NCBI GenBank assembly: GCA_022771695.1
Contig: JALEKJ010000025.1
Span: forward strand, 1 to 33,276
DNA length: 33,276 bases
Reading direction: 5' to 3'
Source: Roseburia sp.
GTDB taxonomy: Bacteria; Bacillota; Clostridia; Lachnospirales; Lachnospiraceae
This document shows, in pieces, positions 1,417 to 32,491 of the stretch (the stretch's first letter is position 1; each line of letters begins with the position of its first letter). A program made the position numbers and the translations under genes. Below the pieces are notes generated by a model, which made no database searches, had not been told where the DNA came from, and saw nothing but the letters and a program-made list of their open reading frames with translations.

Positions 1417-1447
1417 TCCCACAGCAGGCTACACACCTGCCGTGGGA
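1417..1447 (-). terminator. Terminator of the kinase operon, overlapping its stop codon
   Basis: On the minus strand TCCCACGGCAGG pairs, with one G-U type mismatch, with CCTGCTGTGGGA around a 7-nt loop. AATGTTTCTTGTTTTC follows. The kinase stop codon TAG (1429-1431) lies at the loop/stem boundary, so the end of the coding region forms one arm of the terminator. Confidence 0.8.
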
Positions 1448-6412: not shown

Positions 6413-6450
6413 GTTTCCTCTCATTCTGTCGCTTCAAGCGGCTTTCCATT

Positions 6451-8175
6451 CTATTTTACTTGTTCTCTGGTCGGTCCAAAACTGATCACTGCATCTGCTC
6501 CTGCTTTTTTGACCTCTGATACCGGTACCTTGTCATGTTCACTGATGATTTTTGTTACCAGAGGCATACAAAAGCCGCCCTGACACCGTCCCATGCCCGG
6601 ACGAAGTCTTTTTTTGATGCCATCCACCGTATGTACGGAAAATGGCGCATTCAACGCATCGAGAATCTCACCCTTACTGATTTCTTCACACCGGCAGACA
6701 ATAATGCCGTAATCCGGATTCTCCCGAATCAGCTTTGCTCTCTCCTCCGGCGGCAATTCTCTTACTCTTGGAATCGCCTTCCGAACCGGGTCAAACTCAG
6801 GGTTCTTCTCCACCGCCTGCTGCTCCGACAGCATGGATACCGCCAACTCTGCCAGATCCAATGCCACTGCCGGTGCTGTGGTCAGTCCCGGTGACTGAAT
6901 TCCAGCACAGTGAATCAGATTTTTTGTCTTTCTGCCTCTTTCTAATATAAAATCTTCCTCAAAAACAGGCGCCCGCACTCCGGTAAAGTAAGTAATAATG
7001 TCCTGCTTACGCAGCCCCTCTGCGGTATGCTGCTGTTTGGCAAAAACATTGTCGATTGATTCCTGACTGGTTGCAAAGTTCTCCTTCTCCCAGGTTTCCA
7101 CTGCATCCGGTCCGGCAAGAATATTTCCGTCCACCGTATGCAACAATCCACCGCCTTTGGTGTGCCCTGCCGCGCCTGCCGGCTTGCGCAAGGTCTTAAT
7201 CGAAGAAATGCTTTGTACCAGATGCCCTGCTCCCTTATCCAAAATAGAGTTCGTGCCCCTTCTCGGATGAATGGAATAAAAACGGTCCTGTGCCATTCGC
7301 GCTACATCTTCCGCAAATACACCTGCAGCGTTGATCACCAGCTTCGGATAAATACGTCCGCGGTTGGTCATTACACTTACAATCTTCCCGTTTTCCACCT
7401 GCATATCTGTAACTGCTGTATTTAATGATATTTTTGCTCCGTTATGCACCGCATTTTCTCCATAGGCAATCGTAAGCTCATACGGGCAGACACAGCCTGC
7501 GCTGGAATTATAAAGTGCAAATGCAAACTTCGGATTCAGTTCCGGCTCTGCCTCGCGCAACTTTTTCCTGCTCACAATCTTCGTATCCTTCACGCCACAA
7601 ATATATTTTCTGTGACAGGCATACAAAAATATTGCCGGCAAAGTCAACCAGTCCGTAAATCCCACGTATTGTCCGCAACGCCGGAACGGCACTTCCAACT
7701 GGCTGCATACCTCCCCGTACATCTTGTTTCCGAGAAGAACGTAATGCTGCTTTAAGCTGCCTTTTCCTAAATCCACTCCGGGGTGAACCTCTCCGTCATT
7801 TCTCCCGGATGCATGGACCGCCAAGTCTGCCTCCTTATCAACTAACAGGATGTCCAGCTTCCATTTGGAAAGTTCTCTTGCGATGCTCGCCCCTGAGATA
7901 CCTCCGCCTATAATCAAGACATCCGGACTGCATCCTTCTAAGGAAGTATCCTGTATCTTTGGCAAGCGCATAGTCGGCATCTCCACTCCATCCAGGACAA
8001 TGTCATTCACCACATGAATGCGCTTATCCTTCTGCACGCACATATTGCACGCCTCTACGATATCCTGCCAACGCTCCAAATGACCGGACACAACCATGCA
8101 GTCATTCTCGAGCCGGGCACTCACCCGGCCCCCAAATTTCTCTCTTAATTTCTGATTCAAACGCTTCTCGTTCAT
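6451..8175 (-). CDS. GlpA-like FAD-dependent glycerol-3-phosphate dehydrogenase with [2Fe-2S] tail
   Basis: This 574-aa flavoprotein has a DAO-type FAD domain (VLIIGGGISGASIARELS, about 87-104) and a C-terminal BFD-like domain with Cys494-x-Cys496 and Cys531-x4-Cys536 for a [2Fe-2S] cluster, the layout of anaerobic glycerol-3-phosphate dehydrogenase subunit A. Before the FAD domain, residues 1-65 form a separate segment that reads like a BON-type domain (FGGRVSARLENDCMVVSG then IHVVNDIVLDG). The start at 8175 is set by GGAGGG just upstream; an ATG 34 codons earlier would run into the promoter. First gene of the operon, divergent from tetR. The substrate could be another phosphorylated or hydroxylated compound; glycerol-3-phosphate is only the family default. 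Confidence 0.85.
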   Translation of the reverse strand: MNEKRLNQKLREKFGGRVSARLENDCMVVSGHLERWQDIVEACNMCVQKDKRIHVVNDIVLDGVEMPTMRLPKIQDTSLEGCSPDVLIIGGGISGASIARELSKWKLDILLVDKEADLAVHASGRNDGEVHPGVDLGKGSLKQHYVLLGNKMYGEVCSQLEVPFRRCGQYVGFTDWLTLPAIFLYACHRKYICGVKDTKIVSRKKLREAEPELNPKFAFALYNSSAGCVCPYELTIAYGENAVHNGAKISLNTAVTDMQVENGKIVSVMTNRGRIYPKLVINAAGVFAEDVARMAQDRFYSIHPRRGTNSILDKGAGHLVQSISSIKTLRKPAGAAGHTKGGGLLHTVDGNILAGPDAVETWEKENFATSQESIDNVFAKQQHTAEGLRKQDIITYFTGVRAPVFEEDFILERGRKTKNLIHCAGIQSPGLTTAPAVALDLAELAVSMLSEQQAVEKNPEFDPVRKAIPRVRELPPEERAKLIRENPDYGIIVCRCEEISKGEILDALNAPFSVHTVDGIKKRLRPGMGRCQGGFCMPLVTKIISEHDKVPVSEVKKAGADAVISFGPTREQVK

Positions 8176-8218
8176 ATCACCCTCCATAAGTCGTCCGCAC
8201 GACCGACTTCTTATGTTC

Positions 8219-8247
8219 ACAGTACCAGATAATCTTATCAAAGTCAA
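8219..8247 (-). promoter_or_regulatory. Promoter of the GlpA-like/kinase operon
   Basis: On the minus strand TTGACT (8242-8247) is followed after 17 nt by TACTGT (8219-8224), preceded by TGG as an extended -10. It lies 44 bp upstream of the GlpA-like start. Confidence 0.55.
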
Positions 8248-8252
8248 CCAGA

Positions 8253-8312
8253 TTTTGTGCATTTCGTTTAGTTTCACTTATTTTTGCATCAAAATATAGA
8301 CAAAGTGCACAA
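8253..8312. promoter_or_regulatory. Inverted TGCACAAA half-sites, candidate TetR operator
   Basis: TTTTGTGCA (8253-8261) and TGCACAAA (8306-8313) are inverted copies of one motif. One sits just upstream of the -35 of the flavoprotein operon; the other lies between the -35 and -10 of tetR. The position suits autoregulation and control of the divergent operon by the TetR protein. The link is inferred. Confidence 0.45.
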
Positions 8313-13482: not shown

Positions 13483-14112
13483 ATGGATACAAATACGAAG
13501 CAATTCCTTAGTGAACTCTTAGAAAGCTTAAAGAAAATCGATTATGTCAAACCGGAAGATATTCCGAACATCGATTTATATATGGATCAGATTACAACCT
13601 TTATGGATTCACAGCTTGCAGATTTCAAGCGTCATGAAGACGATAAGATTCTGACGAAGACCATGATTAATAATTATGCAAAAAATGATCTGCTCCCACC
13701 TCCGGAGAAGAAAAAGTACAGCAAAGAACATGTCCTGACACTGATTTTTATTTACTATTTCAAAAGCATCTTAAGTATCAGCGATATCCAGAGCATCTTA
13801 AACCCAATTACGGACAAGTACTTTGGCAAAACCGGCGAGAGCAATTACAGTTTAGAGGATATTTATAAGGAAGTATTTGGGTTAGAGCACGAGGAGACTC
13901 TCAACGTCATGAAAGACATTACGAAAAAGTTTACCACTGCTCAGCGGACTTTCCCGAATGCTTCTGGGGAGGACGCAGAGCTTTTGCGAACCTTTAGCTT
14001 TATCTGTATGTTAAGCTATGATGTGTACGTGAAAAAAGCCTTGATTGAGAAAATGCTTGACCGTGCAACTGTCAAGCAGGATGACACCAACGAAAAACGT
14101 AAGAAAAAATAA
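13483..14112 (+). CDS. DUF1836 domain-containing protein
   Basis: This 209-aa protein matches the DUF1836 family of Firmicutes. It has a winged/MerR-like helix-turn-helix region around ILTKTMINNYAKNDLLPPPEKKKYSKEHV (about 65-93), where TMINNYAK and LLPPPEKKKYS are the family signature, followed by helices with no further known domain. The N-terminal helical part (1-55) may be for dimerisation. The resemblance to MerR-type HTH suggests a DNA-binding regulator, but no target is known to me. AGAGGTG lies 7 nt before the ATG, and a consensus promoter is adjacent. It is convergent with the YerC-like gene. Confidence 0.85.
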   Translation: MDTNTKQFLSELLESLKKIDYVKPEDIPNIDLYMDQITTFMDSQLADFKRHEDDKILTKTMINNYAKNDLLPPPEKKKYSKEHVLTLIFIYYFKSILSISDIQSILNPITDKYFGKTGESNYSLEDIYKEVFGLEHEETLNVMKDITKKFTTAQRTFPNASGEDAELLRTFSFICMLSYDVYVKKALIEKMLDRATVKQDDTNEKRKKK

Positions 14113-18162: not shown

Positions 18163-19728
18163 CTATCGGTTCACATATTCTACAAATCGTAAGAACGCTG
18201 CGCGTCCCTCCTCGTTGCACTTATACACACCGGCATCCTCAAGTACTTCCATGAACACCAGACCAATCTCCGTCTGCACAATCTCATGAAGTTTCTCCGG
18301 CGTAATCTCTCCTTCGAGACCACTTCCCGCCGTAAATCCATATTTCGGCAGGAACTCTTCCACCCAGTCCGCATGTTTTGAGAGCACTTCGTCGTTCCGA
18401 ATTGCCGCACCGTCAAGAAGTGCCTGCTCCAATGCTGCCATCTCGTCCTTAAGCCGTGCCGGAAGAACCGCAAGACCCATAACCTCAATCAGCCCGATAT
18501 TCTCTTTCTTGATGTGATGAAGCCTTGCATGAGGATGATAAACGCCAAGCGGATGCTCCTCCGTCGTAATGTTGTTGCGAAGCACGAGGTCAAGCTCATA
18601 GTCCTCGCCGCGGCGTCTTGCAATCGGGGTAATCGTATTGTGCGGCTCACCGTCCGTCTCTGCCAGTACAAATGCCGCTTCATCCGTGTAACCTCTCCAT
18701 GCAAGCAATATCTTATCTGCAAGCTCGATTAAACGCTCCTTATCCTTCGCACTGATACGAATCACGGACATCGGCCATTTTACAATACCCGCCTTTACAT
18801 CCCCAAACCCTGCAAAAGAAATCTCTTTTTCTATCGGGGCTTTTGCCATTGCAAACTCATAATGTCCGCCCTGGAAATGGTCGTGACTTAAGATAGAACC
18901 GCCGACAATCGGCAAATCAGCATTCGAGCCGACAAAATAGTGTGGAAACTGTGTCACAAAATCAAGCAGCTTGCCAAATGTCGCACGCTCGATTTTCATC
19001 GGCGTATGCTCCCCGTTAAAAATAATGCAATGCTCGTTGTAATATACATATGGAGAATACTGGAAAAACCAGTCGCTGTTATTAATCGTCACCGGAATAA
19101 TTCTGTGGTTCTGTCTTGCCGGATGATTAATACGTCCCGCATAACCCTCGTTCTCCTTACACAACAGGCATTTCGGATAACCGCTCTGCTTTGCAAGCTT
19201 CGCTGCCGCAATCGCCTTTGGATCCTTTTCCGGTTTGGAAAGGTTGATGGTAATATCAAGCGTTCCGTACTCGGTATCCGCCGTCCACTTTACATCCTTT
19301 TTGATACGGTATCTGCGAATGTAATCACTGTCACAGCTCAACTTATAGAAATAATCGGTTGCCGCCTGCGGGGACTCCTCCTCATATAAATGGTTAAAGG
19401 TACGAATCACTTCGCTCGGTCTTGGCATTAGCATACTCATAATTTTCGTATCAAACAAATCACGGTATGTAATCGTATTCTCCGGCATCAGCCCGTGTTC
19501 TGCCGCATAGTCAAGCATCTCGGCAAGGATTCCCTCCAACGCCTCCTTGACCTGTTCCTGTGTCATACGAGGCTTCTTCGCATGCGCCACAAGCACTTCG
19601 TCCTCCAGTTCTTCTAACTGAAATAACTCGAGCAGACGGTTTACGGTATAGCGCTCATCCTCCGGCGCCACCAATCCAGTCGCAAGTCCATACTCTGTCA
19701 ATTCCAAAATACGTTCCTGTATCATCAT
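18163..19728 (-). CDS. galT: UDP-glucose--hexose-1-phosphate uridylyltransferase (Bacillus-type GalT)
   Basis: This 521-aa enzyme exchanges UMP between UDP-glucose and galactose-1-phosphate in the Leloir pathway. It belongs to the long Firmicute type (family 2), not the ~350-aa E. coli type: the N-terminal ~130 residues are the family-specific extension, then FKYPKCLLCKENEGYAGR-like (SGYPKCLLCKENEGYAGR), NSDWFFQYSPYVYYNEHCI and the active-site region SILSHDHFQGGHYEFAM. YHPHARLHHIKKENIGLIEVMG follows. Length matches the family. The ATG lies 10 bp after the galK stop, and the AAGGAG ribosome site overlaps that stop, so the two genes are translated together. Provides glucose-1-phosphate and UDP-galactose from galactose released by GH53 and GH2. 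Confidence 0.95.
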   Translation of the reverse strand: MMIQERILELTEYGLATGLVAPEDERYTVNRLLELFQLEELEDEVLVAHAKKPRMTQEQVKEALEGILAEMLDYAAEHGLMPENTITYRDLFDTKIMSMLMPRPSEVIRTFNHLYEEESPQAATDYFYKLSCDSDYIRRYRIKKDVKWTADTEYGTLDITINLSKPEKDPKAIAAAKLAKQSGYPKCLLCKENEGYAGRINHPARQNHRIIPVTINNSDWFFQYSPYVYYNEHCIIFNGEHTPMKIERATFGKLLDFVTQFPHYFVGSNADLPIVGGSILSHDHFQGGHYEFAMAKAPIEKEISFAGFGDVKAGIVKWPMSVIRISAKDKERLIELADKILLAWRGYTDEAAFVLAETDGEPHNTITPIARRRGEDYELDLVLRNNITTEEHPLGVYHPHARLHHIKKENIGLIEVMGLAVLPARLKDEMAALEQALLDGAAIRNDEVLSKHADWVEEFLPKYGFTAGSGLEGEITPEKLHEIVQTEIGLVFMEVLEDAGVYKCNEEGRAAFLRFVEYVNR

Positions 19729-19738
19729 CTTTCACTCC

Positions 19739-20908
19739 TTACGCAAGCTTTACCGGGCCATCGCCAATCTCTACCACATAGAAATCTGCTGCATAGCCAA
19801 TCTTATCCTTGTAAGCAGAACCAACTTTTTCAATGAAGGTATCGACTGCCTCGTCTTTTACAATGCTGACTGTACAGCCACCGAAGCCTGCACCGGTCAT
19901 ACGAGAACCGATGACACCGTCAATCTTCCAGGCTTCCTCTACCAGCGTATCAAGTTCAACACCTGTTACCTCATAATCATCGCGCAGAGAAACATGAGAG
20001 GCATTCATCAGTTCACCGAACAGCTTCACATCGTTGTTCTGTAATGCCGCAACCGCCTTAATCGTTCTCTGATTCTCATAGACTGCATGCTTTGCACGCT
20101 TTCTGCAAATATCACTCTTGATGGCATCCTTGTGCTGCTCAAATTGCTCTTCGGTCAAATCTCCGAGTGTCTGAATGTCAATAACTTCCTTTATCTCTGC
20201 AAGTGCAGTTTCGCATTCGCTACGTCTCTCATTGTACTTAGAATCACCGAGTCCGCGCTTTTTGTTGCTGCAGGAAATTACAATCTTTGCGTTTTCGAGC
20301 TTGATTGGCGCATACTCATATTTCAAAGTTGCTGTGTCTAAGAAGATTGCATGACCTGCCTTGCCCATCGCAATCGCAAACTGATCCATGATGCCGCAGT
20401 TGACACCGTTAAACTTATTCTCGGAGTACTGACCGATGAGTGCCAAATCCTGATTGGTCACATCAAATCCAAACATATCTCTCAAGATAAATCCGGTCAG
20501 CACCTCAACGGATGCGGAAGAAGAAAGTCCGGAACCGTTTGGAATATTGCCGAACAGTACCAAATCCATGCCCAGTTCTACCTTCATCCCCTTCTCTCCG
20601 AACGCCCACATTACGCCCTTCGGATAATTAGTCCAATCTGCCTCTTTCTCCGGCTTTAAGCCTTCCACAGAGGACTCTAACACACCAAGCTCCTCGAAGT
20701 TCATGGAATAAAAGCGAAGCTTCTTGTCCTCTCTTTTTCTGGCAACGCCATAGGTACCAATCGTAAGCGCGCATGGAAATACATGGCCACCATTGTAATC
20801 GGTATGCTCACCGATCATATTGACACGTCCCGGTGCAAAATAGACACCGATTTCTCCCTCGTCTCCAAACAATTCTTTAAACTTTGCAAGTACCTCTTCC
20901 CAAATCAT
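19739..20908 (-). CDS. galK: Galactokinase
   Basis: This 389-aa GHMP-superfamily kinase phosphorylates galactose at C1 with ATP. It shows the galactokinase signature GRVNMIGEHTDYNGG (28-41), the ATP-binding motif IPNGSGLSSSASVEV and the C-terminal motif SRMTGAGFGGCTVSIV. The N-terminal motif fixes it as GalK rather than another GHMP kinase. AGGAGG lies 7 nt before the ATG. It has its own promoter 110 bp upstream and is separated from the GH53 gene by a terminator. Direct repeats just upstream of the -35 suggest regulation by the AraC protein encoded in this locus. Confidence 0.96.
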   Translation of the reverse strand: MIWEEVLAKFKELFGDEGEIGVYFAPGRVNMIGEHTDYNGGHVFPCALTIGTYGVARKREDKKLRFYSMNFEELGVLESSVEGLKPEKEADWTNYPKGVMWAFGEKGMKVELGMDLVLFGNIPNGSGLSSSASVEVLTGFILRDMFGFDVTNQDLALIGQYSENKFNGVNCGIMDQFAIAMGKAGHAIFLDTATLKYEYAPIKLENAKIVISCSNKKRGLGDSKYNERRSECETALAEIKEVIDIQTLGDLTEEQFEQHKDAIKSDICRKRAKHAVYENQRTIKAVAALQNNDVKLFGELMNASHVSLRDDYEVTGVELDTLVEEAWKIDGVIGSRMTGAGFGGCTVSIVKDEAVDTFIEKVGSAYKDKIGYAADFYVVEIGDGPVKLA

Positions 20909-21155: not shown

Positions 21156-22307
21156 TTATTCCGCCTTAAAATCCCTAATTAGCTTCCACGTCGGCAATGC
21201 ATTCCCGTCATAATCAAACAGTGCCTGATTCGCCCACTCGTTGCCACATGGACCCGGGTCCTCGATATACTTAAGCGATGCCGGGGTTGCCCATCCGGAG
21301 CCTTTCACCGGAATCCATGCCGGTTCCCAATAGAAAAAGCCCCTGCCCTTGTTTCCCTTGATATGACTGATGCGATACAGGAAATCCTGCATGAAATCAT
21401 ACTGTCCCTGCTTTGTCATCGGATACTCGATTTTCTCCACCAAAGCCGGGCGGGTCGCATAACCCTTGCGTTCCTCATCGGAAAGCTGCTCGTAATCTTT
21501 GTAGTCCTCCATCGTATATCCCATGGATACCTCTGCCACAATCAGCTCCTTGCCGTAACGCTCTGCAATATCGTTCATGTTGTCCTCAAGCATCTGAAGT
21601 GAGCCATGCCAGAACGGATAGTAGGAAAGTCCAATGATTTCAAATTCCTCTCCACGCTTCGTAAAATTGTCAAACCACTCACGGTACAGAGCATTGTTAC
21701 CGCCGTTGTCCAAGTGAATCATAATCGGAATTCTGTCGGCTTCATCACAATGCACTGCATCTTCACTGCGACCCTCTTCGTCCGCCGTGCGAACCGCACG
21801 AATCCCTGCATTGACAAACTTCGCAATGTTGTCATAGTTTGGCACTTTCCCCTCCGGCCAGAGCAAGCCGTTAGACAGTTCATTGCCGACCTGCACCATT
21901 GTGATGTTTACGCCCTCATCCAGAAACGTGTGCATCGTTGCAAGTGTATAGTCATAGACTGCCTGCTCTAGCTCTGCCACACCATAGGACGCCCAAGCCT
22001 TTGGTTTAAACTGCTTTCCCGGGTCTGCCCAGAAATCGCTGTAGTGGAAGTTTAAGAGTACGCCAAAGCCTGCCTCTGTCACCTTCTTCGCGATAGCAAG
22101 TGAAGTCTTAAGGTCATTTTCCCCTGCACCATAAGACTCGCCGTTTTCTGACCATGGGTCATTCCACAAACGGATACGGATGGTATCGACATCATACTTT
22201 TTCATGATGTCTAAAATATCCATCTCTTCTCCTTCATCATAATACTTTGCGCCACATTTCTCTAACTCCAACAATGTGGACAAATCCATTCCTTTTACAA
22301 ACTTCAT
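21156..22307 (-). CDS. Arabinogalactan endo-beta-1,4-galactanase, GH53
   Basis: This 383-aa family 53 glycoside hydrolase should cut beta-1,4-galactan or galacto-oligosaccharides with retention. The barrel starts at once with FVKGMDLSTLLELEKCGAKYY, followed by VDTIRIRLWNDP, LLNFHYSDFWADPGKQ and QVGNELSNGLLWPEG, where Glu143 is the acid/base. The nucleophile Glu259 is in LIVAEVSMGYT, and the calcium/C-terminal region GKGRGFFYWEPAWIP closes the domain. ATG at 22307 follows GGAG by 7 nt; a longer in-frame reading starts in an intergenic hairpin. No signal peptide is present, unlike secreted GanB, so the enzyme is predicted to be cytoplasmic and to work on imported oligosaccharides. Same operon as the GH2 gene. 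Confidence 0.94.
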   Translation of the reverse strand: MKFVKGMDLSTLLELEKCGAKYYDEGEEMDILDIMKKYDVDTIRIRLWNDPWSENGESYGAGENDLKTSLAIAKKVTEAGFGVLLNFHYSDFWADPGKQFKPKAWASYGVAELEQAVYDYTLATMHTFLDEGVNITMVQVGNELSNGLLWPEGKVPNYDNIAKFVNAGIRAVRTADEEGRSEDAVHCDEADRIPIMIHLDNGGNNALYREWFDNFTKRGEEFEIIGLSYYPFWHGSLQMLEDNMNDIAERYGKELIVAEVSMGYTMEDYKDYEQLSDEERKGYATRPALVEKIEYPMTKQGQYDFMQDFLYRISHIKGNKGRGFFYWEPAWIPVKGSGWATPASLKYIEDPGPCGNEWANQALFDYDGNALPTWKLIRDFKAE

Positions 22308-22338
22308 TATTTTTCTCCAACTGTTTCTATTTATTTCT

Positions 22339-22368
22339 GCATGTACCGCCCTCTGTGACGGCACATGC
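22339..22368 (-). other. Intercistronic hairpin between GH2 and GH53 genes
   Basis: GCATGT-A-CCG (22339-22348) pairs with CGG-C-ACATGC (22359-22368). No T-run follows on the minus strand, so it is more likely an mRNA-stability or spacing element than a full terminator. Confidence 0.55.
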
Positions 22369-22381
22369 AAGCTTCAAATTT

Positions 22382-25300
22382 TCAAATACCGCGGAAACGG
22401 AACGTAAACTCTAACGGCTTTGTCACATCGATATGATACTCCGGATGTACCAGAGAACCCCAACTGTCGTCTCCGCCGACACCCATCTGTGCGAGTGCCA
22501 CGCGCACTACCGTGTAGTGTACCTGTGACAATTCATACGGATGCATCGCATGTTCCATCTCATGTGGCGTATACGGAAGTGCTGAGAAGGATAAGTTCTC
22601 ACCCTCAAAAAGCAATCCTCTGCCACATGCATCCGTTACCTTAGCGTAGCGGACTCCCATCTTGTTGCCACACTCCTGCGGCACAAGGTACTGTGCCATG
22701 TTATCTGCCACGCGATTTTTATAGATACCAAGCTTCGCCCCATGTTTTCTGTCCGCATAGGTTTCCTCCGGTCCAAGTCCGTACCACTCCAAACGGTCAT
22801 AGTCGGCATTCATTTTGAACATCATACCAAACTCCGGCATGTCACCAAGCTCTACTACAGGCTCATAGCGCAGTGTTGTCTCCACGCTTCCGTCACCTGT
22901 CACCTTGTAGGTAACGCTGCAGGAGCTCTTTGGAGTCGTCGGCAAATCATAATTATATGTAATCGCCACCGCCTGTTCGCTCTCTTGCACTACCGGGTCC
23001 GCATAATTGAACATTCCGTCGCTGCCAATACCTGCATAAAGGCTGGCTATCTTCCACTGTGCCATTCTTCCCTGCATACGGTTTCCACAGTCATTGTCCA
23101 ACGGTGCTCTCCAGAAGTTCGGCATCGGAATCTTCTCAAGCATTTCCTGTCCCTCATAGCGATAGGACACCAAACCACGGCTGTTATATGAGAAAAGTAC
23201 CTCAAACCCCTCTCCCTTAACGCCGAGATTGCATTTGCCGTGAATCACACGTATCGGCTTTTTATCTACCGCAGCTTCTTTGCGAATCACCGGATACACC
23301 TTCTGTCCGAAAGCGACCTCATGACCTGCGCTTGCCCAGAGCATATCTGTCTTCAGTCGGAAGGAAACCGTCAATGCATACTCTGCTCCCGGCTCACTGC
23401 CGCCTGCTGCCGCTAACAATTCCGCTACAAATTCGCCAAACTCCTTTAGCTGATAGGTCTGCTTTGCAAGCGGTGCCACGGAAATCGTCACCTTTTTCTC
23501 CCGAATACATTTTCCGTTCTTCTGCAAAAGCAGATATGCATCATAATTCGATGTATCTGTAAACAAATTTTTATTGATTACCGTAAACGCATCGCCGGTC
23601 TCAGAAAAATCTACGCTGATATTCTGATAATTGAACTTCACTTCCTGCATCTTTGGCGAAGGCGCCCTATCCTTCGCATAGCAGATACCGTTACCGCTGA
23701 AATTGTAGTCTGTCGGACGCTCTAAAAAGTCTCCGCCATATGCCTGAAACTCTCTGCCATAGCGGTCTTTCTTTAAAATAGACTGGTCAATGTAGTCCCA
23801 GATAAATCCGCCCTGATAACGCGGCTCGGTATCGGTCAAATCCGTATACTTGTGCATGGCACCGCAGGAATTTCCCATCGCATGGGTATATTCACAGCAA
23901 ATAAACGGCTTCTCTTTCTGCTCTGCGAGATTCTTCTTGATGCGCTCTACCGGCGGATACATCTGGCTTTCCATATCGCTGGAACCGTTGTAGCGTCTGT
24001 CATTGTAAACACCCTCGTAGTGTACAAGCCGATCCGGATCAAGTGCACGGAATTTCTCTGACATTTCAAAAATTACTTTTCCGCCATAAGACTCGTTACC
24101 GCAGGACCAAATCAGAATTGCCGGATGATTCTTATCCCGCTGATAGCATGTATTCACGCGATCAAGCATGCGCGCAGTCCATTTTTCATTATCGCCCGGC
24201 ACAATGGTTTCCTCGGTACCGCCGTTGCGAAGTGCTGCCACATCCCATGTCCCGTGAGACTCCAGATTGTTCTCCGCAATCATGTAAATTCCATAGCGGT
24301 CACAAAGTTCATAGATACCGGAACTGTTCGGATAATGACTGGTGCGAATCGCATTGATATTGTTCTGTTTCATCGTCACGATGTCGGTAAGCGTCTCCTC
24401 CATGCTCACGACACGACCGGTCAGACAACTGAACTCATGGCGATTGACGCCCTTAAACACGATGCGTTTGCCATTTAAGCACATCAGTCCGTCCTTCATT
24501 TCAAATCTGCGGAAACCGATGCGCTGGGAAGTAACCTCCAAAAGCTCTCCTGTCCCATCATACACTTCCAGTTCCAATTCATATAAGTATGGTTCTTCGG
24601 CACTCCAGAGCTTCGGTGCCGCTAACGAATAAGAAAACTCACTCTGTGCCCTCAGCGTCTCTTCTTTTTCCAGCACAGCTTTTCCTGTAACGCACTCTCC
24701 ACCTGCCGTAGCAGCGGTTTCGTGCACTGCACTGTCCTGACATCCGATTTCAAGCAGACGCAACTTTATTTTTCCTTCCTGCGGCGCCTCATTTCTCTCT
24801 AATGCAGTGCGAATCGTAAGATTTAGCTCAGCATTCTTTAAATCCTCTGCCACAAGCGGGCGCACCTTTATGTCCCAGATATGTACCTTCGGTATCGTAT
24901 AGAGATAAACACTGCGGAATAATCCGGAAAAACGGTAGAAGTCCTGTTCCTCACACCAGCTTCCGATGGTCCACTTGAACACCTGCACTGCAAGCTTGTT
25001 CTCTCCCGGCTTCACATATGGGGTAAGTTCAAATTCAGATGGTGTGAAGGAATCCTCCGCAAACCCCACATACTGACCATTCAACCACACAACCAGTCCG
25101 CTCTCCGCCCCTTGGAAAGAAACAAAAAGGCGCTCTCCCATAAAATATTCCGGCAACGTAAAATATTTTACATAGCTTGCCACCGGATTAAACTCACGCG
25201 GCATCTCTTCTGTCCAGATTTCTTCTCTGCCATCCCAGGGATACTGCGTATTCACATATTGCGGAGCATCGTAGCCCTCCATCTGAATATGTGCCGGCAC

Positions 25301-25567
25301 ACGAATATCCCCCCAGCTCTTGCAGTCATATGATTCCTGCTCAAATCCCGGAATCGTCTGTTCATAATTTCTCGCATAATGAAACTTCCACGTTCCATCC
25401 AAAAACAAGCGAAAACTACTCTTTTTTCCCAACACATCCGGTAGCACGGCATACCTCTCCCTTGCTTCCTCCCAATTTTTGTAACAAACATGGTCGGAAT
25501 GCGCCGTCATACGGTTTTCCATAAAAAGCTCCGGATTCCCCAACTTCGTCACTTCAAATTTGTTCAT
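22382..25567 (-). CDS. Beta-galactosidase, GH2 (LacZ-type)
   Basis: This 1061-aa enzyme hydrolyses terminal beta-galactosides. It has the five-domain LacZ layout: sugar-binding jelly roll (about 50-225, WVWLNG-like LVVWLNGQYVGFAEDSF), immunoglobulin-like domain, TIM barrel beginning FKGVNRHEFSCLTGR (371-385), second Ig-like domain and C-terminal Bgal_small_N domain (FWRAPLDNDCGNR, LGPEETYADRK). Acid/base Glu492 is in WSCGNESYGG and nucleophile Glu559 in CCEYTHAMGN. ATG at 25567 has a G-rich ribosome site (GGGGG) upstream; an earlier in-frame start would lie inside the araC terminator. No signal peptide, so cytoplasmic. It is followed by GH53 and probably works on its products. Confidence 0.95.
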   Translation of the reverse strand: MNKFEVTKLGNPELFMENRMTAHSDHVCYKNWEEARERYAVLPDVLGKKSSFRLFLDGTWKFHYARNYEQTIPGFEQESYDCKSWGDIRVPAHIQMEGYDAPQYVNTQYPWDGREEIWTEEMPREFNPVASYVKYFTLPEYFMGERLFVSFQGAESGLVVWLNGQYVGFAEDSFTPSEFELTPYVKPGENKLAVQVFKWTIGSWCEEQDFYRFSGLFRSVYLYTIPKVHIWDIKVRPLVAEDLKNAELNLTIRTALERNEAPQEGKIKLRLLEIGCQDSAVHETAATAGGECVTGKAVLEKEETLRAQSEFSYSLAAPKLWSAEEPYLYELELEVYDGTGELLEVTSQRIGFRRFEMKDGLMCLNGKRIVFKGVNRHEFSCLTGRVVSMEETLTDIVTMKQNNINAIRTSHYPNSSGIYELCDRYGIYMIAENNLESHGTWDVAALRNGGTEETIVPGDNEKWTARMLDRVNTCYQRDKNHPAILIWSCGNESYGGKVIFEMSEKFRALDPDRLVHYEGVYNDRRYNGSSDMESQMYPPVERIKKNLAEQKEKPFICCEYTHAMGNSCGAMHKYTDLTDTEPRYQGGFIWDYIDQSILKKDRYGREFQAYGGDFLERPTDYNFSGNGICYAKDRAPSPKMQEVKFNYQNISVDFSETGDAFTVINKNLFTDTSNYDAYLLLQKNGKCIREKKVTISVAPLAKQTYQLKEFGEFVAELLAAAGGSEPGAEYALTVSFRLKTDMLWASAGHEVAFGQKVYPVIRKEAAVDKKPIRVIHGKCNLGVKGEGFEVLFSYNSRGLVSYRYEGQEMLEKIPMPNFWRAPLDNDCGNRMQGRMAQWKIASLYAGIGSDGMFNYADPVVQESEQAVAITYNYDLPTTPKSSCSVTYKVTGDGSVETTLRYEPVVELGDMPEFGMMFKMNADYDRLEWYGLGPEETYADRKHGAKLGIYKNRVADNMAQYLVPQECGNKMGVRYAKVTDACGRGLLFEGENLSFSALPYTPHEMEHAMHPYELSQVHYTVVRVALAQMGVGGDDSWGSLVHPEYHIDVTKPLEFTFRFRGI

Positions 25568-25616
25568 CGCCACTACCCCCATATTGTAGATTCTTGATAA
25601 ATCTATTATATATTCA

Positions 25617-25662
25617 AAAATGCGCGTTTTGTGCAAATATCTAGCTACAAAACGCGCATTTT
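25617..25662 (-). terminator. Terminator after araC-type gene
   Basis: A 16-bp perfect stem (25617-25632 with 25647-25662) surrounds a 14-nt loop. On the minus strand it ends in TTTTT. It begins just after the AraC stop. A TATATAAT box (minus strand, about 25604-25612) follows it, so a GH2 promoter may overlap this hairpin. Confidence 0.85.
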
Positions 25663-25668
25663 CAATCA

Positions 25669-26619
25669 TTACCAGCCTTTTCGTGCAGAAATATTATAAT
25701 TGAGCAATTTCCGCTCATAATTCTTAGGATTAATTTTCCACTGGTATGGCGACGTATTTAAAATCTTTTTGAAATTGCGGTTGAACGTAGATGTCGTCGC
25801 AAATCCAACCTTTTGCGCAACAATATCCATGGAATCATTGGTCTTCTTCATCAGGTCACACGCTTTTTGAACACGCACTAAATTAATATAATCCACCGGC
25901 GACATATTCATGCACGCTTCGAATATCCTTCTAAAATGCGTCTCGCTCATATGACAAACCTGCGCCAGTTCCTCTACGCGGATGGAATGTGTGTATTCCA
26001 TACGAACATAGTCAAGCGCCTCTGCAATCTGCGCCAAACCAGAGTTTTTTCTACCCCGGTTTTCCTGCTCATTTCTGCGCTCATTCTGCTCATTCATCCG
26101 CACTATTTCTGTGACCAGTGCAAACAGAAGTCCCTTTACACTATCCGTATAGTAAGATCGCCTCCCACGCATCTCTTCCATAATCATCTTCACAAGCAAT
26201 GCAATATTACGGTTTTCCCACTCGTGCACAAAAAGCGCCTTGCGGTTAATCTTCTCAAGTATTTCTCTCTGTAAAAGCTCATTATCCGGATACATTTCAT
26301 TAACCATCTGTATCGGATCAAAAAACAGATACTCCCAAAAAGACGGTCCTTCTTTCGCATTACTTATCGTAACATGCGGATAATTGTGTGGTATGATGCT
26401 CACCATTGCAGACTGGTATGGGAGTTTTTCCTCATCAAGGACAAGTTCTCCCGTTCCACTTCTGCACACTCCGATTTCCATCAGATTATGAAAGTGAAGA
26501 TTGACCTCATCATGGCCGTAGTCACGAATCCAGTTCTCCCCCAGGAGCGCCAGCACATATTCATTTTGTGGTATTTCGTAAAAACGGAGTTCGATAGTAT
26601 CTTTCTTCTTTTTTCCCAT
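25669..26619 (-). CDS. AraC-family transcriptional regulator
   Basis: This 316-aa protein has an N-terminal cupin-like sugar-sensing half (VNLHFHNLMEIGVCRSGTGELVLDEE, about 39-64) and a C-terminal pair of helix-turn-helix motifs: IRVEELAQVCHMSETHFRRIFEACMNMSP and MDIVAQKVGFATTSTFNRNFKKILNTSPYQW. Such regulators usually activate the carbohydrate genes beside them. AAGGAAG lies before the ATG. It sits 11 bp after the zinc-ribbon gene in the middle of the galactan locus, ends in a strong terminator, and probably controls the transporter, GH and galKT promoters in response to a galactoside. Confidence 0.92.
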   Translation of the reverse strand: MGKKKKDTIELRFYEIPQNEYVLALLGENWIRDYGHDEVNLHFHNLMEIGVCRSGTGELVLDEEKLPYQSAMVSIIPHNYPHVTISNAKEGPSFWEYLFFDPIQMVNEMYPDNELLQREILEKINRKALFVHEWENRNIALLVKMIMEEMRGRRSYYTDSVKGLLFALVTEIVRMNEQNERRNEQENRGRKNSGLAQIAEALDYVRMEYTHSIRVEELAQVCHMSETHFRRIFEACMNMSPVDYINLVRVQKACDLMKKTNDSMDIVAQKVGFATTSTFNRNFKKILNTSPYQWKINPKNYERKLLNYNISARKGW

Positions 26620-26630
26620 AAAAATCTTCC

Positions 26631-26849
26631 TTAATCGAAGTCAAACTTATCAAATCTTTTTGCCATCGCACGATAGCGGAAACGAATCATCTCGTTTTTC
26701 TCCAGTACATCCTCCTCCGTACCGGTATACTGGCAGCGGAGACAATAGTACTCTCCTTTTTCTTTATCAAAGAACATATCGATGTCTAAGTCACGCATGA
26801 AGCAGGACGGACATCTATAATTTAATTTGCCTTTTCCAGATTGAGCCAT
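26631..26849 (-). CDS. Small zinc-ribbon protein
   Basis: This 72-aa protein has two CxxC knuckles, Cys13-Pro-Ser-Cys16 and Cys36-Leu-Arg-Cys39, 19 residues apart, which form a zinc ribbon. The C-terminal half is charged and helical (EKNEMIRFRYRAMAKRFDKFDFD). AAGGAGG lies 10 nt before the ATG, inside the coding end of the 617-aa protein gene, which it overlaps by 28 bp in another frame. I do not recognise a named family or a function. The overlap and operon position tie it to the unknown enzyme upstream or to the AraC regulator 11 bp downstream. Confidence 0.82.
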   Translation of the reverse strand: MAQSGKGKLNYRCPSCFMRDLDIDMFFDKEKGEYYCLRCQYTGTEEDVLEKNEMIRFRYRAMAKRFDKFDFD

Positions 26850-28675
26850 GTCGCAAATACCTCCTTATCAGCCATCATCTTCTTGTATCCTAATGTGAAC
26901 ATTGGAGAGAATGCATACCCCTCTCTGATGTATCCTTCTGCATCTGCTGCCGTAGCAGTCATAGATACTTTTGTTTCAATCGCCGGAATCACAGCGCTTA
27001 CCTCATCAGCTCCCATAACCGCAGCCTCACGGCACTTGTATTCATAACTGATGGTCTCTGTCTCGCTTCCTTTTGCAGCCTTTAAGGTAATTCCTGTCAT
27101 ATCCTCCGGATATTCGGTCGTTCCGTAGCATGCAACCATATATTCGTTAATTTCAACCTTTGCAGTCGGGTCGCTCATCTCTAAGATTTCACGCTCAATA
27201 CGAATGTTACCGCTTCCCTCCTCAAAGTATTCCTTGGTCTGAAGCTTTACCGTCAGCCCGTCGAATTCGATATCTACCGGATCAAGTGTCAGCACTCTTG
27301 TCACCTTGCCGGAAGCGTCCTTCTCCTCAGAGAAGTGTGCCTTTGTACGGCATAAACAGAGGTCTACTTCCTCGCCGTTATAGCATACTTTCGCGCTTCT
27401 TACGGTACCCTCACCTGCATAGTGTGTGAAGTAACCTGCGCGGTATTTCTCCTGAATCAGGAACGGATAAGATGCATCCTGTACATGCTTCGTGCCGATA
27501 CCGACTTCCCACTTCAATTTTGCCGCATACGGACGAAGGTCAACGATTGCTCCACCCTGATCCATGTTCACACATGCTCTCATGTATGGGTCACAATACC
27601 AGAATACCTGCTTGTCTGAACCGTACAGGATATCTCTCCAAAGAGCACATTCCGGTTCTGTATAGTGCTTCTTTTCACGATAGTAATCAGCGAACTCAGA
27701 CATTGTCATATCAACAAGCTTGCCTTCTTTTTTCAGCTTACCATAGTAAGCGCAACCATCCTCATAGGATTTTAAGAGCAGCTCATAAGGAGCCTCCCAA
27801 CGTCCCATCTTATTCATCCAGCCCGGTCCGACAAACATCATATTATATGCATAGCCGTTGTTGTATTTTGCAAGATCACGATACTGGTCAATCAAGTTGT
27901 AAAGATATGGATACTCCCATGTCTTGGAATCGTAAATCATACCACGCAATACGTTCTGCGGATGTGTTCCGAAGTTAGAGCCATTTCCGTCATAGCATGC
28001 AATCAGGTCACGTGACAGATGTGGAATTGCAACAATTCCGCTGTCTTCTGCCTCATTTGCTGCCGGTGCATGGGTATTCTGTTTAGAAGGAATCCACGGC
28101 GCCCATGGGCCTCCATCAAACAATGTGTACCAGGAATTGTTACAGGTATGGTAAGCTTTTGGTCCTTCCTCCCAGCAGGTAGCAACGGCGCATTTCACCA
28201 TTGGATATTTCTCTTTAATATAGTTGGTGAGTTCTGCATCCATGTAGTAAGAGCCGGTAGACTCCGGGTAGAATCCAAATCTCTCATGGAATTTTTCAAA
28301 TACATCATTTACAATTTCCTTTTTATCTTCCATAGAGAACATCCAGATACAAAAATCCTTGGTGTTGTATTTCTCACGGAACTCTTTACATGGAAGTCCA
28401 AGCAGAGACAACGCGATTTCATCGCCGTATTTCTCATGATGCTCTTTTGCAAGTGCTACCGCCTCGTCGTTAAATAGGCTGGCATAGGTCATCTGAATCG
28501 TTACTTTTAAACCATTCTTGTGCGCGGCCTCCTGCTGTGTCTTAAAGATATCCAAAGATTCTGTCAAAAGTGCCTTTCTTCCGATATCCTCGGTCTTTCC
28601 ATGACCGGTTACTTTTTCTGCATATTCCGGAACCATCTCCGGTCTATGTATCAGATTCAATACAAATTGATCCAT
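26822..28675 (-). CDS. Uncharacterised 617-aa protein, possible new carbohydrate-active enzyme
   Basis: I cannot assign a characterised family. No signal peptide or membrane segment is seen, so it should be cytoplasmic. Residues 1-~360 alternate strands and helices in the way of a TIM-barrel or deacetylase-like (beta/alpha) barrel; conserved-looking acidic or aromatic sites are ESTGSYYMDAE (138-148), ATCWEEGP (165-172), DGGPWAPWIP (187-196), HLSRDLIACYDG (219-230) and GPGWMNKMGRWE (283-294). Residues ~400-617 are beta-rich. It faintly recalls the structure-known but functionally unknown DUF3863/DUF3864 family of Bacteroidetes; I am not sure of that. GGAG lies 7 nt before ATG 28675; an earlier in-frame ATG has no such site. 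It follows the permease genes and overlaps the zinc-ribbon gene. Context suggests action on an imported galactoside. Confidence 0.85.
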   Translation of the reverse strand: MDQFVLNLIHRPEMVPEYAEKVTGHGKTEDIGRKALLTESLDIFKTQQEAAHKNGLKVTIQMTYASLFNDEAVALAKEHHEKYGDEIALSLLGLPCKEFREKYNTKDFCIWMFSMEDKKEIVNDVFEKFHERFGFYPESTGSYYMDAELTNYIKEKYPMVKCAVATCWEEGPKAYHTCNNSWYTLFDGGPWAPWIPSKQNTHAPAANEAEDSGIVAIPHLSRDLIACYDGNGSNFGTHPQNVLRGMIYDSKTWEYPYLYNLIDQYRDLAKYNNGYAYNMMFVGPGWMNKMGRWEAPYELLLKSYEDGCAYYGKLKKEGKLVDMTMSEFADYYREKKHYTEPECALWRDILYGSDKQVFWYCDPYMRACVNMDQGGAIVDLRPYAAKLKWEVGIGTKHVQDASYPFLIQEKYRAGYFTHYAGEGTVRSAKVCYNGEEVDLCLCRTKAHFSEEKDASGKVTRVLTLDPVDIEFDGLTVKLQTKEYFEEGSGNIRIEREILEMSDPTAKVEINEYMVACYGTTEYPEDMTGITLKAAKGSETETISYEYKCREAAVMGADEVSAVIPAIETKVSMTATAADAEGYIREGYAFSPMFTLGYKKMMADKEVFATWLNLEKAN

Positions 28676-28750
28676 GTTATCTCTCCTCTGTTTTTTTACT
28701 TTCATATATGTGGAAGAATACTGCTTTTGTACTCTTCTAATGCAAGATTA

Positions 28751-28809: not shown

Positions 28810-29658
28810 TTAACCCTTCACAGAACCACCTGTGATACCCTCTACATAGAATTTCTGCATGATGATGAACAGAATACCGATTGGAATACCAACCAATACA
28901 CCGCCTGCGCAGAATCTCGAGAAGTAGTTCGGAAGCAACTGACGTTGCAGCATATTATAAAGTCCGATTGCCACAGTCCAGTCCGTAGAAATACCGGAAT
29001 TTAAAATAATTCTCGCAAATACGAAATCCGTCCACGGTACCAGGAAGGAACTGATTACTGTATACACAATAATCGGCTTTGACAGCGGAAGTACAATCGT
29101 AAAGAAAGTTCTCGCCTCCGATGCCCCCTCAAGGTAGGCTGCCTCACGCAAAGAGTTCGGAATTGTGTCAAAGAAGCCCTTTGCCACCAGATAACCAAGT
29201 CCCGCACCGCCGGAATACACCAGAATCATACCGATATGACTGTTGGTCAGGTTTATTGACTTTAGAATAAAGTAAATCGCAATCATGGATAAAAAGCCCG
29301 GGAACAGTTGCAGCATAACTGCAATGTTCATCAATGCTTTTCTTCCCTTAAAGCACATACAGCTCATCGCATAACTGACCATCAATACAAAAGAGGTAGA
29401 AATCAGGCATACGAAAATTGCAATAATTAATGTATTCTTAAACCAAACCGGGAACTGTGCTACGGAATCCGGCTCAAAGAGGATTCGCGTATAGTTATGA
29501 AGTGTCCAGTTTTCCGGGAAGAAACGACTGGTATTCATTCCATCGTAGCCGCTGAAAGAGGTTACAACCAGCCATATAATCGGCACAAGCCATATAACGG
29601 CAAGCACGGTCAACACTACATGTAATAATACAGAACTAATAATTTTCTTCTTACCCAT
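28810..29658 (-). CDS. Carbohydrate ABC transporter permease, MalG/GanQ-type
   Basis: This 282-aa inner-membrane permease has six hydrophobic helices and the cytoplasmic ATPase-contact EAA loop LREAAYLEGASEARTFFTIVLPLSKP (about 177-202). It belongs to the CUT1 family (MalG, GanQ). The start codon shares its A with the stop of the upstream permease (TAATG), with AGGAGG about 13 nt before it, so the two are translationally coupled. Together with the MalF-type permease and lipoprotein it should import oligosaccharides; the neighbouring GH53 and GH2 enzymes point to galacto-oligosaccharides. Confidence 0.93.
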   Translation of the reverse strand: MGKKKIISSVLLHVVLTVLAVIWLVPIIWLVVTSFSGYDGMNTSRFFPENWTLHNYTRILFEPDSVAQFPVWFKNTLIIAIFVCLISTSFVLMVSYAMSCMCFKGRKALMNIAVMLQLFPGFLSMIAIYFILKSINLTNSHIGMILVYSGGAGLGYLVAKGFFDTIPNSLREAAYLEGASEARTFFTIVLPLSKPIIVYTVISSFLVPWTDFVFARIILNSGISTDWTVAIGLYNMLQRQLLPNYFSRFCAGGVLVGIPIGILFIIMQKFYVEGITGGSVKG

Positions 29659-31109
29659 TATCTGAATGTCTCCTCCTTATCTCCCTTAATCAAGAAGTTA
29701 AAGGCAAATAATGTGATTATCGCACATACGATAAATACACAGATACCGATAACCGCAGCCATCTTATAGTTGTACTGTTCACTTGTCAGTCGGTAAAGCC
29801 ATGTTACCAGAAGGTCAATTTCCTTACCCCAGGAAGCCGCCAGTTTCTGGTCTGTCGTGACATATACGTCCTGTGTTAACAGGTAGATGACATTAAAGTT
29901 GTTGATATTTGCAGTAAACTGTGTTACCAGGTATGGTCCCGTAATAAAGAACATATACGGCATTGTAATTTTTCGGAAAATCTGGAATGCGTTCGCGCCA
30001 TCAATTCTGGCGCTCTCTTTTAACTCCTCCGGAATATTCATAAGAACACCGGTTGCAATCAGCATCAGGTATGGCACACCGACCCAAATATTGATGACAA
30101 TAATTGTAATTTTCGCCCAGGTCGGATCTGTAAGGAATGGGATGTAATTCGTCGAAATCCAACCCCAATCCTTAAAAAGGTCTGTAAGTCCTATGCTCGC
30201 GCAGAACGTATTGGCGAGACCGTTATTTGCAAAAAAGTTACGCATCAGCAGTAAGGTTACGAACTGAGGAATGGAGATTGCTGCTACAAAAAGCGTTCTC
30301 CACATCTTTTTCAGTTTTGTCTGTTTGTTGTTAATTAACAATGCAAGAATGATTCCGCCAAAGTATGTCGTAAATGTCGCAAATACTGCCCAGGTAAGTG
30401 TCCATCCAAGTACCTTCCAGAAAGTATATCCGAAGGTTGATGTAATTGTCGTTGTAAAAAGACTTTTGAAGTTTGTAAGTCCTGTCCATGTAAATAACGC
30501 ATTTGGCGGCATATGATTCTGGTCATAGTTCGTAAATGCCACGCAAATCATAACGATTAGCGGCATGATGTTAAAAATAACAACACCTGCTATCGGAAGT
30601 GCCAATAATGTAAAATGGAACTTCTCATTCAGCATAGACACCATGTCTTCTTTGAATGTATTAATATGTTTTCCTGCTTCCGCACTCTGCTGCAGACGGT
30701 ATGTGTTTCTAACATTTGCCATCCACAGAATGACTGCTACCACAAGAAAGCTCAAGCTGATAACTCCAAATAGCAGAATCAACAGCGAATTATCATAGTC
30801 ATTCACCTCGTTTTTCATGGTTGCCGGGTTATAAACCATCGCCCGCTCCACCGTACCGAGGGTACTAAATTTTCCAATATATGGAATTCCAATCAATGCG
30901 GTATATAAAATCACTCCGATTTCCAACAATGTCACAAGGAAACCTTTTATTATCTGTTTTCTTCTCCAATATCCGGCTCCCGCTACAATCAGGGATGCCT
31001 TGACTGCCCAGTCACCTTTGCTGACAGCCTCGCCAAATTCTTTTAAGAATGTACCGATTGCACCAAAGAAAACTGCCACCGGACTCTTCTCTTTCTTTTC
31101 TTTACCCAT
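29658..31109 (-). CDS. Carbohydrate ABC transporter permease, MalF/GanP-type
   Basis: This 483-aa CUT1 permease carries about eight hydrophobic segments: an N-terminal extra part (residues 1-~170 with helices near 55-80 and 105-130) as in MalF and GanP, then the permease core. The EAA loop is EELKESARIDGANAFQIFRKITMPYM. The large first half explains the length beyond the ~300 aa of minimal permeases. The start is uncertain: ATG at 31109 (MGKEKKEK) is used, but an ATG at 31121 and a GTG at 31139 are in frame and no ribosome site is decisive. It pairs with the MalG-type permease, which overlaps its stop. No ATPase gene is in the locus. Confidence 0.9.
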   Translation of the reverse strand: MGKEKKEKSPVAVFFGAIGTFLKEFGEAVSKGDWAVKASLIVAGAGYWRRKQIIKGFLVTLLEIGVILYTALIGIPYIGKFSTLGTVERAMVYNPATMKNEVNDYDNSLLILLFGVISLSFLVVAVILWMANVRNTYRLQQSAEAGKHINTFKEDMVSMLNEKFHFTLLALPIAGVVIFNIMPLIVMICVAFTNYDQNHMPPNALFTWTGLTNFKSLFTTTITSTFGYTFWKVLGWTLTWAVFATFTTYFGGIILALLINNKQTKLKKMWRTLFVAAISIPQFVTLLLMRNFFANNGLANTFCASIGLTDLFKDWGWISTNYIPFLTDPTWAKITIIVINIWVGVPYLMLIATGVLMNIPEELKESARIDGANAFQIFRKITMPYMFFITGPYLVTQFTANINNFNVIYLLTQDVYVTTDQKLAASWGKEIDLLVTWLYRLTSEQYNYKMAAVIGICVFIVCAIITLFAFNFLIKGDKEETFR

Positions 31110-31153
31110 GCAAGCACCCATGCCTTTCCATATCTGCACCTTAACTCACGAAA

Positions 31154-31225: not shown

Positions 31226-32491
31226 TTACTCTGTAGGCTGTCCTACTGCTGCTACAAGGTTATCTAACAATGTCTGTAAATCAGTTCCTTCCGGATTTCC
31301 CTGTGCCATAATCTCACCAAAGGTCTTTGTCGGCTCCCAGTATCCGCCGCCAACTACCTGAACAACACCGTTTGTACCGTTCTGCATGGTTACTGCTACA
31401 AGTGCTACGTTCTCCTGTACTTCCGGAGCTTCGCCTGCTGCAATGTTAGAAGGTCCAATCTGTCTCTGTGAGAAACGCTCTTTCTGGCTCTCCTCGTTGG
31501 TCAAGAACTTCGCTAATTCCATAGCCCAACCAACCTGTGCAGAGTTTGCATTCACACCAATCATCTTATAACCTGCTGCGGAACCCATCGGAACCTGCTC
31601 ACCGGCGCATGTATAGGTAGGAAGTGCAGTTGCTGCATATCCATCGCCAAAAGCTTCCTGAACTGCTGCTGCATCCCATGTACCGGAAATGATTGCGCCT
31701 AACTCACCGCCTGCAATCTGGTTACTTGTATCACCGTCTGTAATAGGAAGGAAAGCAGCGTTGCCTGCGATATCAAGCATTGCCTGTGCAACATCCGTTC
31801 CTGCGATTCCGTCTGCTGATGTTCCGTTCCAGTCCATACTTGTGCTTCCGTCTTCATTCAAAGCAGTTGTAAACCCTGCGCCATAGAAGAAACCTGCATT
31901 ATACCAACCGGATGCCATTACCATACCAGCCTTCTTACCGGCTGCTGCACAATCTGCAAGAATTGCATCCCAGTTTGAAGGATCTGTAACAACTGTGCTA
32001 TCATAGAATAAGAAGTATCCGTTATCAGCAGACATTGGATATGCATATAAAGTTCCATCAACGGTAGCTGCATCCACAGAACCTGCTACGTTTTCAGAAG
32101 AAATAGTATCCACATCCTGAACTGGCTGTAAAACACCTGCGTTTACGAGGTCTGTAATCTGATCGCTTGCAAATGCGAATACATCTGCTGCTGCTTCCGG
32201 GTCAACTAAAATATCATCTTTTGCTTTTGCTTCAGACTCAACACCGATTGTGATATCGAAAGTCTGATCCGGGTTTGCAGCCTTGAAATTTTCAACCAAC
32301 TCAGCCGTTAATGTCTGATCTTCCTCTGCTGCCCATACAGTCAATGCGATTGTCTCGCCGCTTGCTGCCGGTGCTGCTGCCTCTTCCGTTCCTGCCGGTG
32401 CTGCTGCGCCTTCATCTTTGCTTCCGCATCCTGTAACCATGGTAGCTACCATGCTCACACATAACAATGCGCTCAAAACTTTTTTCTTCAT
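31226..32491 (-). CDS. Extracellular sugar-binding lipoprotein, MalE/GanS-type
   Basis: This 421-aa solute-binding protein starts with a lipoprotein signal peptide (MKKKVLSALLCVSMVATMVTGC), whose lipid-attachment cysteine is Cys22. An Ala/Glu/Gly-rich linker (about 25-48) leads to the binding domain (IALTVWAAEEDQTLTAELVENFKAANP), typical of family 1 (maltose/galactan-type) proteins. DVFAFASDQITDLVNAGVLQPV and NGYFLFYDSTVV are also usual for this group. GGGAGG lies upstream of the ATG. It is the first gene of the transporter operon with a near-consensus promoter. By operon context it should bind beta-galactosides, galactan fragments or related plant/host glycans. Confidence 0.93.
   Translation of the reverse strand: MKKKVLSALLCVSMVATMVTGCGSKDEGAAAPAGTEEAAAPAASGETIALTVWAAEEDQTLTAELVENFKAANPDQTFDITIGVESEAKAKDDILVDPEAAADVFAFASDQITDLVNAGVLQPVQDVDTISSENVAGSVDAATVDGTLYAYPMSADNGYFLFYDSTVVTDPSNWDAILADCAAAGKKAGMVMASGWYNAGFFYGAGFTTALNEDGSTSMDWNGTSADGIAGTDVAQAMLDIAGNAAFLPITDGDTSNQIAGGELGAIISGTWDAAAVQEAFGDGYAATALPTYTCAGEQVPMGSAAGYKMIGVNANSAQVGWAMELAKFLTNEESQKERFSQRQIGPSNIAAGEAPEVQENVALVAVTMQNGTNGVVQVVGGGYWEPTKTFGEIMAQGNPEGTDLQTLLDNLVAAVGQPTE

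Follow-up and report, generated by a model that had tools for sequence, protein, structure and literature searches.

The stretch of DNA examined here, 33,276 nucleotides (nt) from Roseburia sp. and referred to in full as the window, carries a galactan locus that includes a gene for a 617-amino-acid (aa) protein without a family name, denoted X, and a small gene, ZnR, which begins within the 3' end of X and encodes a protein with four cysteines. The minus-strand order of the locus is binding protein, two permeases, X, ZnR, AraC regulator, GH2, GH53, galactokinase and galactose-1-phosphate uridylyltransferase (GalT), in agreement with the placement of X between oligosaccharide permeases and GH53/GH2 enzymes by the original prediction. 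Loci are denoted below by L-numbers and genomes by G-numbers. The features of the locus are as follows.

31226..32491, minus strand: sugar ATP-binding cassette (ABC) transporter binding protein, with weak GanS/MalE similarity under the curated cut-offs
29658..31139, minus strand: ABC permease, MalF-like
28810..29658, minus strand: ABC permease, MalG-like
28683..28688, minus strand: Shine-Dalgarno-like GAGGAG for the 617-aa start of X, directly 5' of the start
26822..28675, minus strand: X, putative catalytic subunit
28106..28165, minus strand: codons 171-190 of X, the conserved segment after C167-E169-E170
26860..26866, minus strand: Shine-Dalgarno sequence of ZnR, AAGGAGG, within the X coding region, 10 nt 5' of the ATG
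26631..26849, minus strand: ZnR, 72 aa, putative zinc-binding partner
25669..26619, minus strand: AraC-type regulator
22382..25669, minus strand: GH2 beta-galactosidase, LacZ type
21156..22370, minus strand: GH53 endo-beta-1,4-galactanase, single domain, with no obvious signal peptide by eye
19739..20908, minus strand: galactokinase
18163..19728, minus strand: GalT

The minus-strand frame of X is open from 26822 to 28705 (627 aa), and encodes 617 aa when begun at 28675, the start that is preferred because of its Shine-Dalgarno-like sequence and its agreement with the N-terminus of the relatives. X is a genuine gene rather than a chance open reading frame (ORF), given that 2427 of the 7997 database proteins scored match it at E<=0.001, and that at least 574 of the 594 candidate stretches listed from species genomes encode a relative. 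Its identity is 84-95% in the best 80 loci, and 72-91% in the full-length X-clade matches from 397 Lachnospiraceae genomes, with its own genome excluded. The cultured Eubacterium ruminantium ATCC 17233 (L027) is among the carriers. When genomes were sampled evenly across the phylum, X matched only its own genome (1/398), and a class sample searched with the divergent X-type protein of L113 yields matches in 22 of 391 genomes, including weak matches to P0121-like proteins (a lipoprotein from a Parabacteroides polysaccharide utilization locus, PUL, and its relatives). The existence of an unnamed 617-aa protein in a galactan locus was thus rightly predicted, with an open frame, the expected neighbours and numerous relatives, while its proposed cytoplasmic location is consistent with the absence of a signal-peptide-like N-terminus, judged by eye. 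The naming of X by sequence searches was abandoned, given that none of them provided a useful result: no Pfam family was matched at E<=10, and hence no PF12979, GH57, GH38 or NodB model, nothing was found in NCBIfam at E<=0.001, and the single match in the PDB (E 0.4) carries no weight. A profile built from 130 relatives reached the structure 3lm3 at E 0.039 only.

The second gene of the pair, ZnR, shares 28 nt with the 3' end of X, and its product has the cysteine pattern CPxC...CxRC. In a survey of the DNA downstream of 130 X-like genes, which counts the source genome twice (L001 and L083) and includes L021, where the sequence stops 4 nt after X, a CxxC..CxxC ORF follows the X-like gene in 124 of the 129 loci with room for it (at least 230 nt), that is, in all 124 X-type loci. 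The overlap was scored at 28 nt in 122 of these loci, and at 31 nt in L113, while in one the score fell on an in-frame start further upstream. The small ORF is lacking in five loci, which are the P0121-like relatives L082 and L114-L117. In a further set, retrieved by searching with the L113 protein, the small ORF is present at all 17 distinct places (16 from the class search and a second copy in G860, with one from the source genome and one already counted), a count that leaves aside four other weak matches and L147, a fragment interrupted by stops, and the ORF is absent from the three P0121-like loci examined in this set, making 0/8 for both sets together. An ATG stands at the expected overlap position in 123/123 loci, and is preceded by AGGAGG in 111 of the 123, whereas only 0.9% of 6150 control positions within the X genes have this motif. 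The ratio of nonsynonymous to synonymous differences (pN/pS) is approximately 0.18 for the part of ZnR outside the overlap, and 0.15 for X, figures which are rough because the synonymous differences approach saturation. The residues C13, C16, C36 and C39 of ZnR are invariant in all 73 aligned sequences, and form two CxxC-type knuckles. The reading of X as a lone gene was therefore dropped, as the small ORF lies beside every X-type gene examined with room for it; the original account was right about the locus, but missed this four-cysteine partner.

The distribution of the two proteins across the 397 Lachnospiraceae genomes, the same sample for both, is almost identical. X has matches in 56 genomes and ZnR in 54, and the two X-only genomes, G400 and G448, contain only weak P0121-like matches, while the remaining 54 genomes, which are the same for both proteins, comprise 53 of the X clade and G427, the source of L113. 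None of the 397 genomes has a ZnR match without an X match, and the pair is retained where X is only approximately 33-46% identical to the L113 protein. These comparisons establish the coupling of the two genes and the conservation of both, and make a strong case for their pairing.

The linkage of the pair to galactan genes in the X clade is equally strong. The count covers the 54 of 80 fetched loci in which 6 kb is available to either side of X (the other 26 being too short), and GH53 lies within this distance in 47 of them, part of an ABC importer in 33, and GH2 or GH42 in 30. At least one of the GH53, beta-galactosidase and importer genes is found in 53 of the 54 loci, which upholds the predicted linkage of the relatives to sugar transporters and galactosidases. 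In the remaining locus, L040, GH53 was detected by tblastn; the neighbouring genes in the locus surveys were called by greedy ORF picks that hide some genes, such as the GH53 of L040 and L033. At the level of the genome, 93 of the 397 have a GH53 match (E<=0.001), comprising 45 of the 53 X-clade genomes versus 48 of the 344 others (Fisher p ~4e-25), and X shares a contig with a listed GH53 in at least 38 genomes, at a distance of no more than 600 nt in at least 34 of these. Among the matches listed (150 GH53 rows), X occurs in 36 of the 41 genomes with a GH53 frame no longer than 430 aa, as against seven of the 39 with only longer frames, which indicates that X accompanies the short GH53, presumably a cytoplasmic enzyme. 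Relative to the copies in the window, X is 84-95% identical in the compared loci, GH53 49-84%, and GH2 mostly 50-70%, with one distant GH2 at 29%, so that X is better conserved than the adjoining galactanase. This high conservation, together with the lack of a family name, points to an undescribed step in the use of pectic galactan by gut bacteria.

The wider distribution of the pair extends beyond galactan. No GH53 match was found in eight of the 53 X-clade genomes, of which seven (G412, G454, G545, G655, G733, G760 and G767) have ABC permease genes adjoining X, while the eighth, G740, has a truncated X. GH2 lies nearby in four of the seven, accompanied by GH42 in two and by GH20 in one, and G545 has a melibiase-like gene, while G733 and G412 encode a very large secreted-looking protein. 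The divergent pairs are situated in other sugar loci, with an alpha-L-fucosidase and an importer near L113, a melibiase-like gene near L152, and GH31, rhamnosidase and GH42 near L163, whereas GH53 follows the X-type copy in L158, which is from another family. Importer and sensor-kinase genes were seen by eye beside the pair in L153 and L154. Given these neighbours and the eight GH53-less genomes, a galactan-only reading was dropped for the wider family: the X-ZnR unit is not confined to the Gan pathway, as the divergent pairs occupy other sugar loci. As a separate observation, proteins of approximately 2200 aa are encoded directly 3' of X-ZnR in two genomes without GH53 (L120:9475-16001 and L123:9259-15888); the one in L120 contains FIVAR, Big_2 and F5/8 C domains, with a sub-threshold GH39 match, and is possibly a new surface galactan enzyme.

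The predicted model of X has a NodB/GH57-type barrel at approximately residues 1-340, followed by a galactose-mutarotase-like beta domain at approximately residues 340-617, and this model and its fold matches bear out the barrel and the beta-rich C-terminal domain of the original prediction. The closest match is 3lm3, which shares the barrel fold at 17% identity, and was deposited as an uncharacterised protein with the title “putative glycoside hydrolase/deacetylase”. A confident match to a characterised family, which would have refuted the original prediction, was not obtained, and the fold comparison relates X to DUF3863/DUF3864 and, more remotely, to the NodB and GH57 folds. The canonical metal motif of NodB consists of an Asp on the first strand and HxxxH (the Asp-His-His of CE4), while catalysis in GH57 involves a Glu nucleophile and an Asp acid/base at the ends of the barrel strands. 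The canonical motifs of NodB and GH57 are not evident in X, and no HxxxH is visible by eye at the expected strands, based on the sequence and the strands of the model, in keeping with the predicted lack of a visible catalytic signature. In an alignment of 22 representatives, D223 is retained in all 22, D or E at position 169 in 21, and D146 in 20. The residues D146, E169 and D223 lie at strand ends in the model, and are candidate active-site residues based on conservation and position.

These results bear on an alternative function for X, as an O- or N-deacylase whose NodB-like barrel would strip acetyl or other acyl groups from the imported oligosaccharides, with ZnR as a structural or metal-supplying aid. 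This appears unlikely, although it deserves attention, given that the canonical NodB metal motif is not visible in X, and that the mutarotase-like C-terminal domain, which is not the build of simple deacetylases, is that of GH38/GH57 proteins, such as 1k1x.

The same alignment contains a stretch after C167 that separates the X-type from the P0121-like proteins. It reads CFEEG or CWEEG...CNNSWY in most sequences, and is altered in L163 and L164. The stretch is present in six rows with a known ZnR (X, L118, L134, L144, L163 and L164), and in eight P-numbered rows that come with no genomic context here, while both the stretch and ZnR are absent from the P0121-like rows L114-L117, L148 and L150, and from P0123, the row that represents the L082 protein. 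The mean predicted local distance difference test (pLDDT) score of X is 52 at residues 171-180 and 71 at residues 181-190. The segment is well conserved despite this low model confidence, a combination that would be compatible with its touching an absent partner or ligand, and residues 171-190 are thus a candidate contact for ZnR or a ligand.

The best overall explanation of these data, held with a little less than even confidence, is that X and ZnR form a cytoplasmic two-protein enzyme that acts on imported galacto-oligosaccharides. The catalytic role would fall to X, whose predicted fold combines a NodB/GH57/GH38-type barrel with a mutarotase-like domain and which is distantly related to DUF3863 proteins, while the translationally coupled ZnR is predicted to be the second subunit, and would probably bind zinc. 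For the X clade, the substrates of this unit may be the galacto-oligosaccharides delivered by the ABC importer, alongside the short, probably cytoplasmic GH53 and GH2/GH42, and the most likely reaction would be the hydrolysis of a linkage, cap or branch beyond the reach of these enzymes, much as the original account had conjectured for GH2 and GH53. If this is true, X expressed alone could well appear inactive.

A number of findings weigh against this explanation, including the GH53-less genomes and divergent pairs described above, and the presence of GH53 without X in 48 of 344 genomes, which shows that X is not required for the use of galactan in general. The absence of the canonical motifs counts in the same direction, as does the fact that the catalytic residues are only candidates. 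This last point, together with the AraC and LacI regulators that are common in the vicinity, would favour X having an enzyme fold but a sugar-binding or otherwise non-catalytic role (as a sensor, or similar to a chaperone), a reading that is nevertheless very improbable, as the invariant polar residues gather at the ends of the barrel strands, as an active site would. ZnR, in turn, has no Pfam match above the cut-off (best E 0.036), a weak model with a pLDDT of 69, and no significant match in the fold search (best PDB E 0.43). In G740 (L173, G740:C4), X is cut to approximately 250-260 residues beside an intact ZnR, and is part of a decaying pair, and the gene overlap by itself would help to hold the two genes together. 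The overlap, the intact ZnR without a whole X, and the best of the weak, non-significant Pfam and fold matches of ZnR, which point to zinc ribbons from proteins that bind nucleic acids, would all suit a small accessory or regulatory protein, for example, one that binds nucleic acids, leaving X to work alone. This is rather improbable, given the purifying selection on ZnR outside the overlap, the retention of the pair at low identity to the L113 protein, and the presence of the segment after C167 in the six rows with a known ZnR, but not in the ZnR-less rows.

A broader form of the two-protein enzyme is a tentative proposal, which would more readily fail than hold. Here, X-ZnR would found a new type of two-subunit carbohydrate-active enzyme, in which a separate small zinc-ribbon subunit completes the active site of a GH57/NodB-like barrel, as a general cytoplasmic step in the processing of oligosaccharides in anaerobic Clostridia, with galactan as the specialisation of the X clade.

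Elsewhere in the window, a phage-integrase-family recombinase is found at its edge (34-1050), and a DUF1836 protein (13483-14112) adjoins a PcrA/UvrD helicase and a CAAX protease-like protein. The region at 1429-8277 contains an FGGY sugar kinase, an FAD-linked oxidase, and FAD oxidoreductases with a BFD-like iron-sulfur domain, which, by eye, looks like a cluster for the oxidation of glycerol or a related polyol.

Among the known systems, the closest to X are the DUF3863 and DUF3864 proteins (PF12979, PF12980), represented by 3lm3 (BDI_3119 of Parabacteroides distasonis), which have the same barrel fold, although X differs in its 17% identity, its position outside the Pfam models, its large mutarotase-like domain, and its ZnR partner. 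The L113 protein has 2301 relatives at E<=0.001, and among the 120 of these that were listed, at least seven bear a precomputed PF12979 label. The P0121-like proteins, with 5323 relatives of P0121 at E<=0.001 among 7999 scored, are 24% identical to X over 271 residues and share C167, D/E169 and D223, but lack ZnR (8/8 loci) and the insertion after C167, both of which are present in X, and P0121 looks secreted by eye, whereas X does not. In a SusC/SusD locus on a Parabacteroides distasonis plasmid (L082:7587-10710), a P0121-like protein with no Pfam match is encoded directly 5' of a DUF3863/DUF3864 protein, so that two members of one fold group adjoin, while an 805-aa P0121-like protein (L115:6568-8985) has an extra chitobiase C-terminal/Fn3-associated domain. 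The GH57 enzymes (for example, the 1k1x 4-alpha-glucanotransferase and Aquifex amylopullulanase) are 9-13% identical to X, and we know of no ZnR-like partner in this family. The GH38 structures align only loosely with the model (root-mean-square deviation of approximately 20), and the NodB-type deacetylases and PuuE allantoinase, at 10-13% identity, lack a C-terminal domain that matches that of X.

The Gan loci, with GH53, GH2/GH42 and an ABC importer, have the same neighbours as most X-clade loci, where the GH53 beside X is usually of the short form, while the usual Gan pathway has, to our knowledge, no X-ZnR unit. A full-text literature search, assessed by title and abstract, recovered no paper on X, DUF3863/3864 or a zinc ribbon in the use of galactan, and no description of the overlapping four-cysteine partner or the association with short GH53 was found in print by such searches. 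One report lists loci of Roseburia and E. rectale that contain GH53 and GH2, in passages that do not mention X (PMC5320581). The fold group of the barrel is, then, a known one, with a nearest solved member of no known function, and the novelty of the system lies in the four-cysteine partner gene that overlaps X, and in the link to the short GH53.
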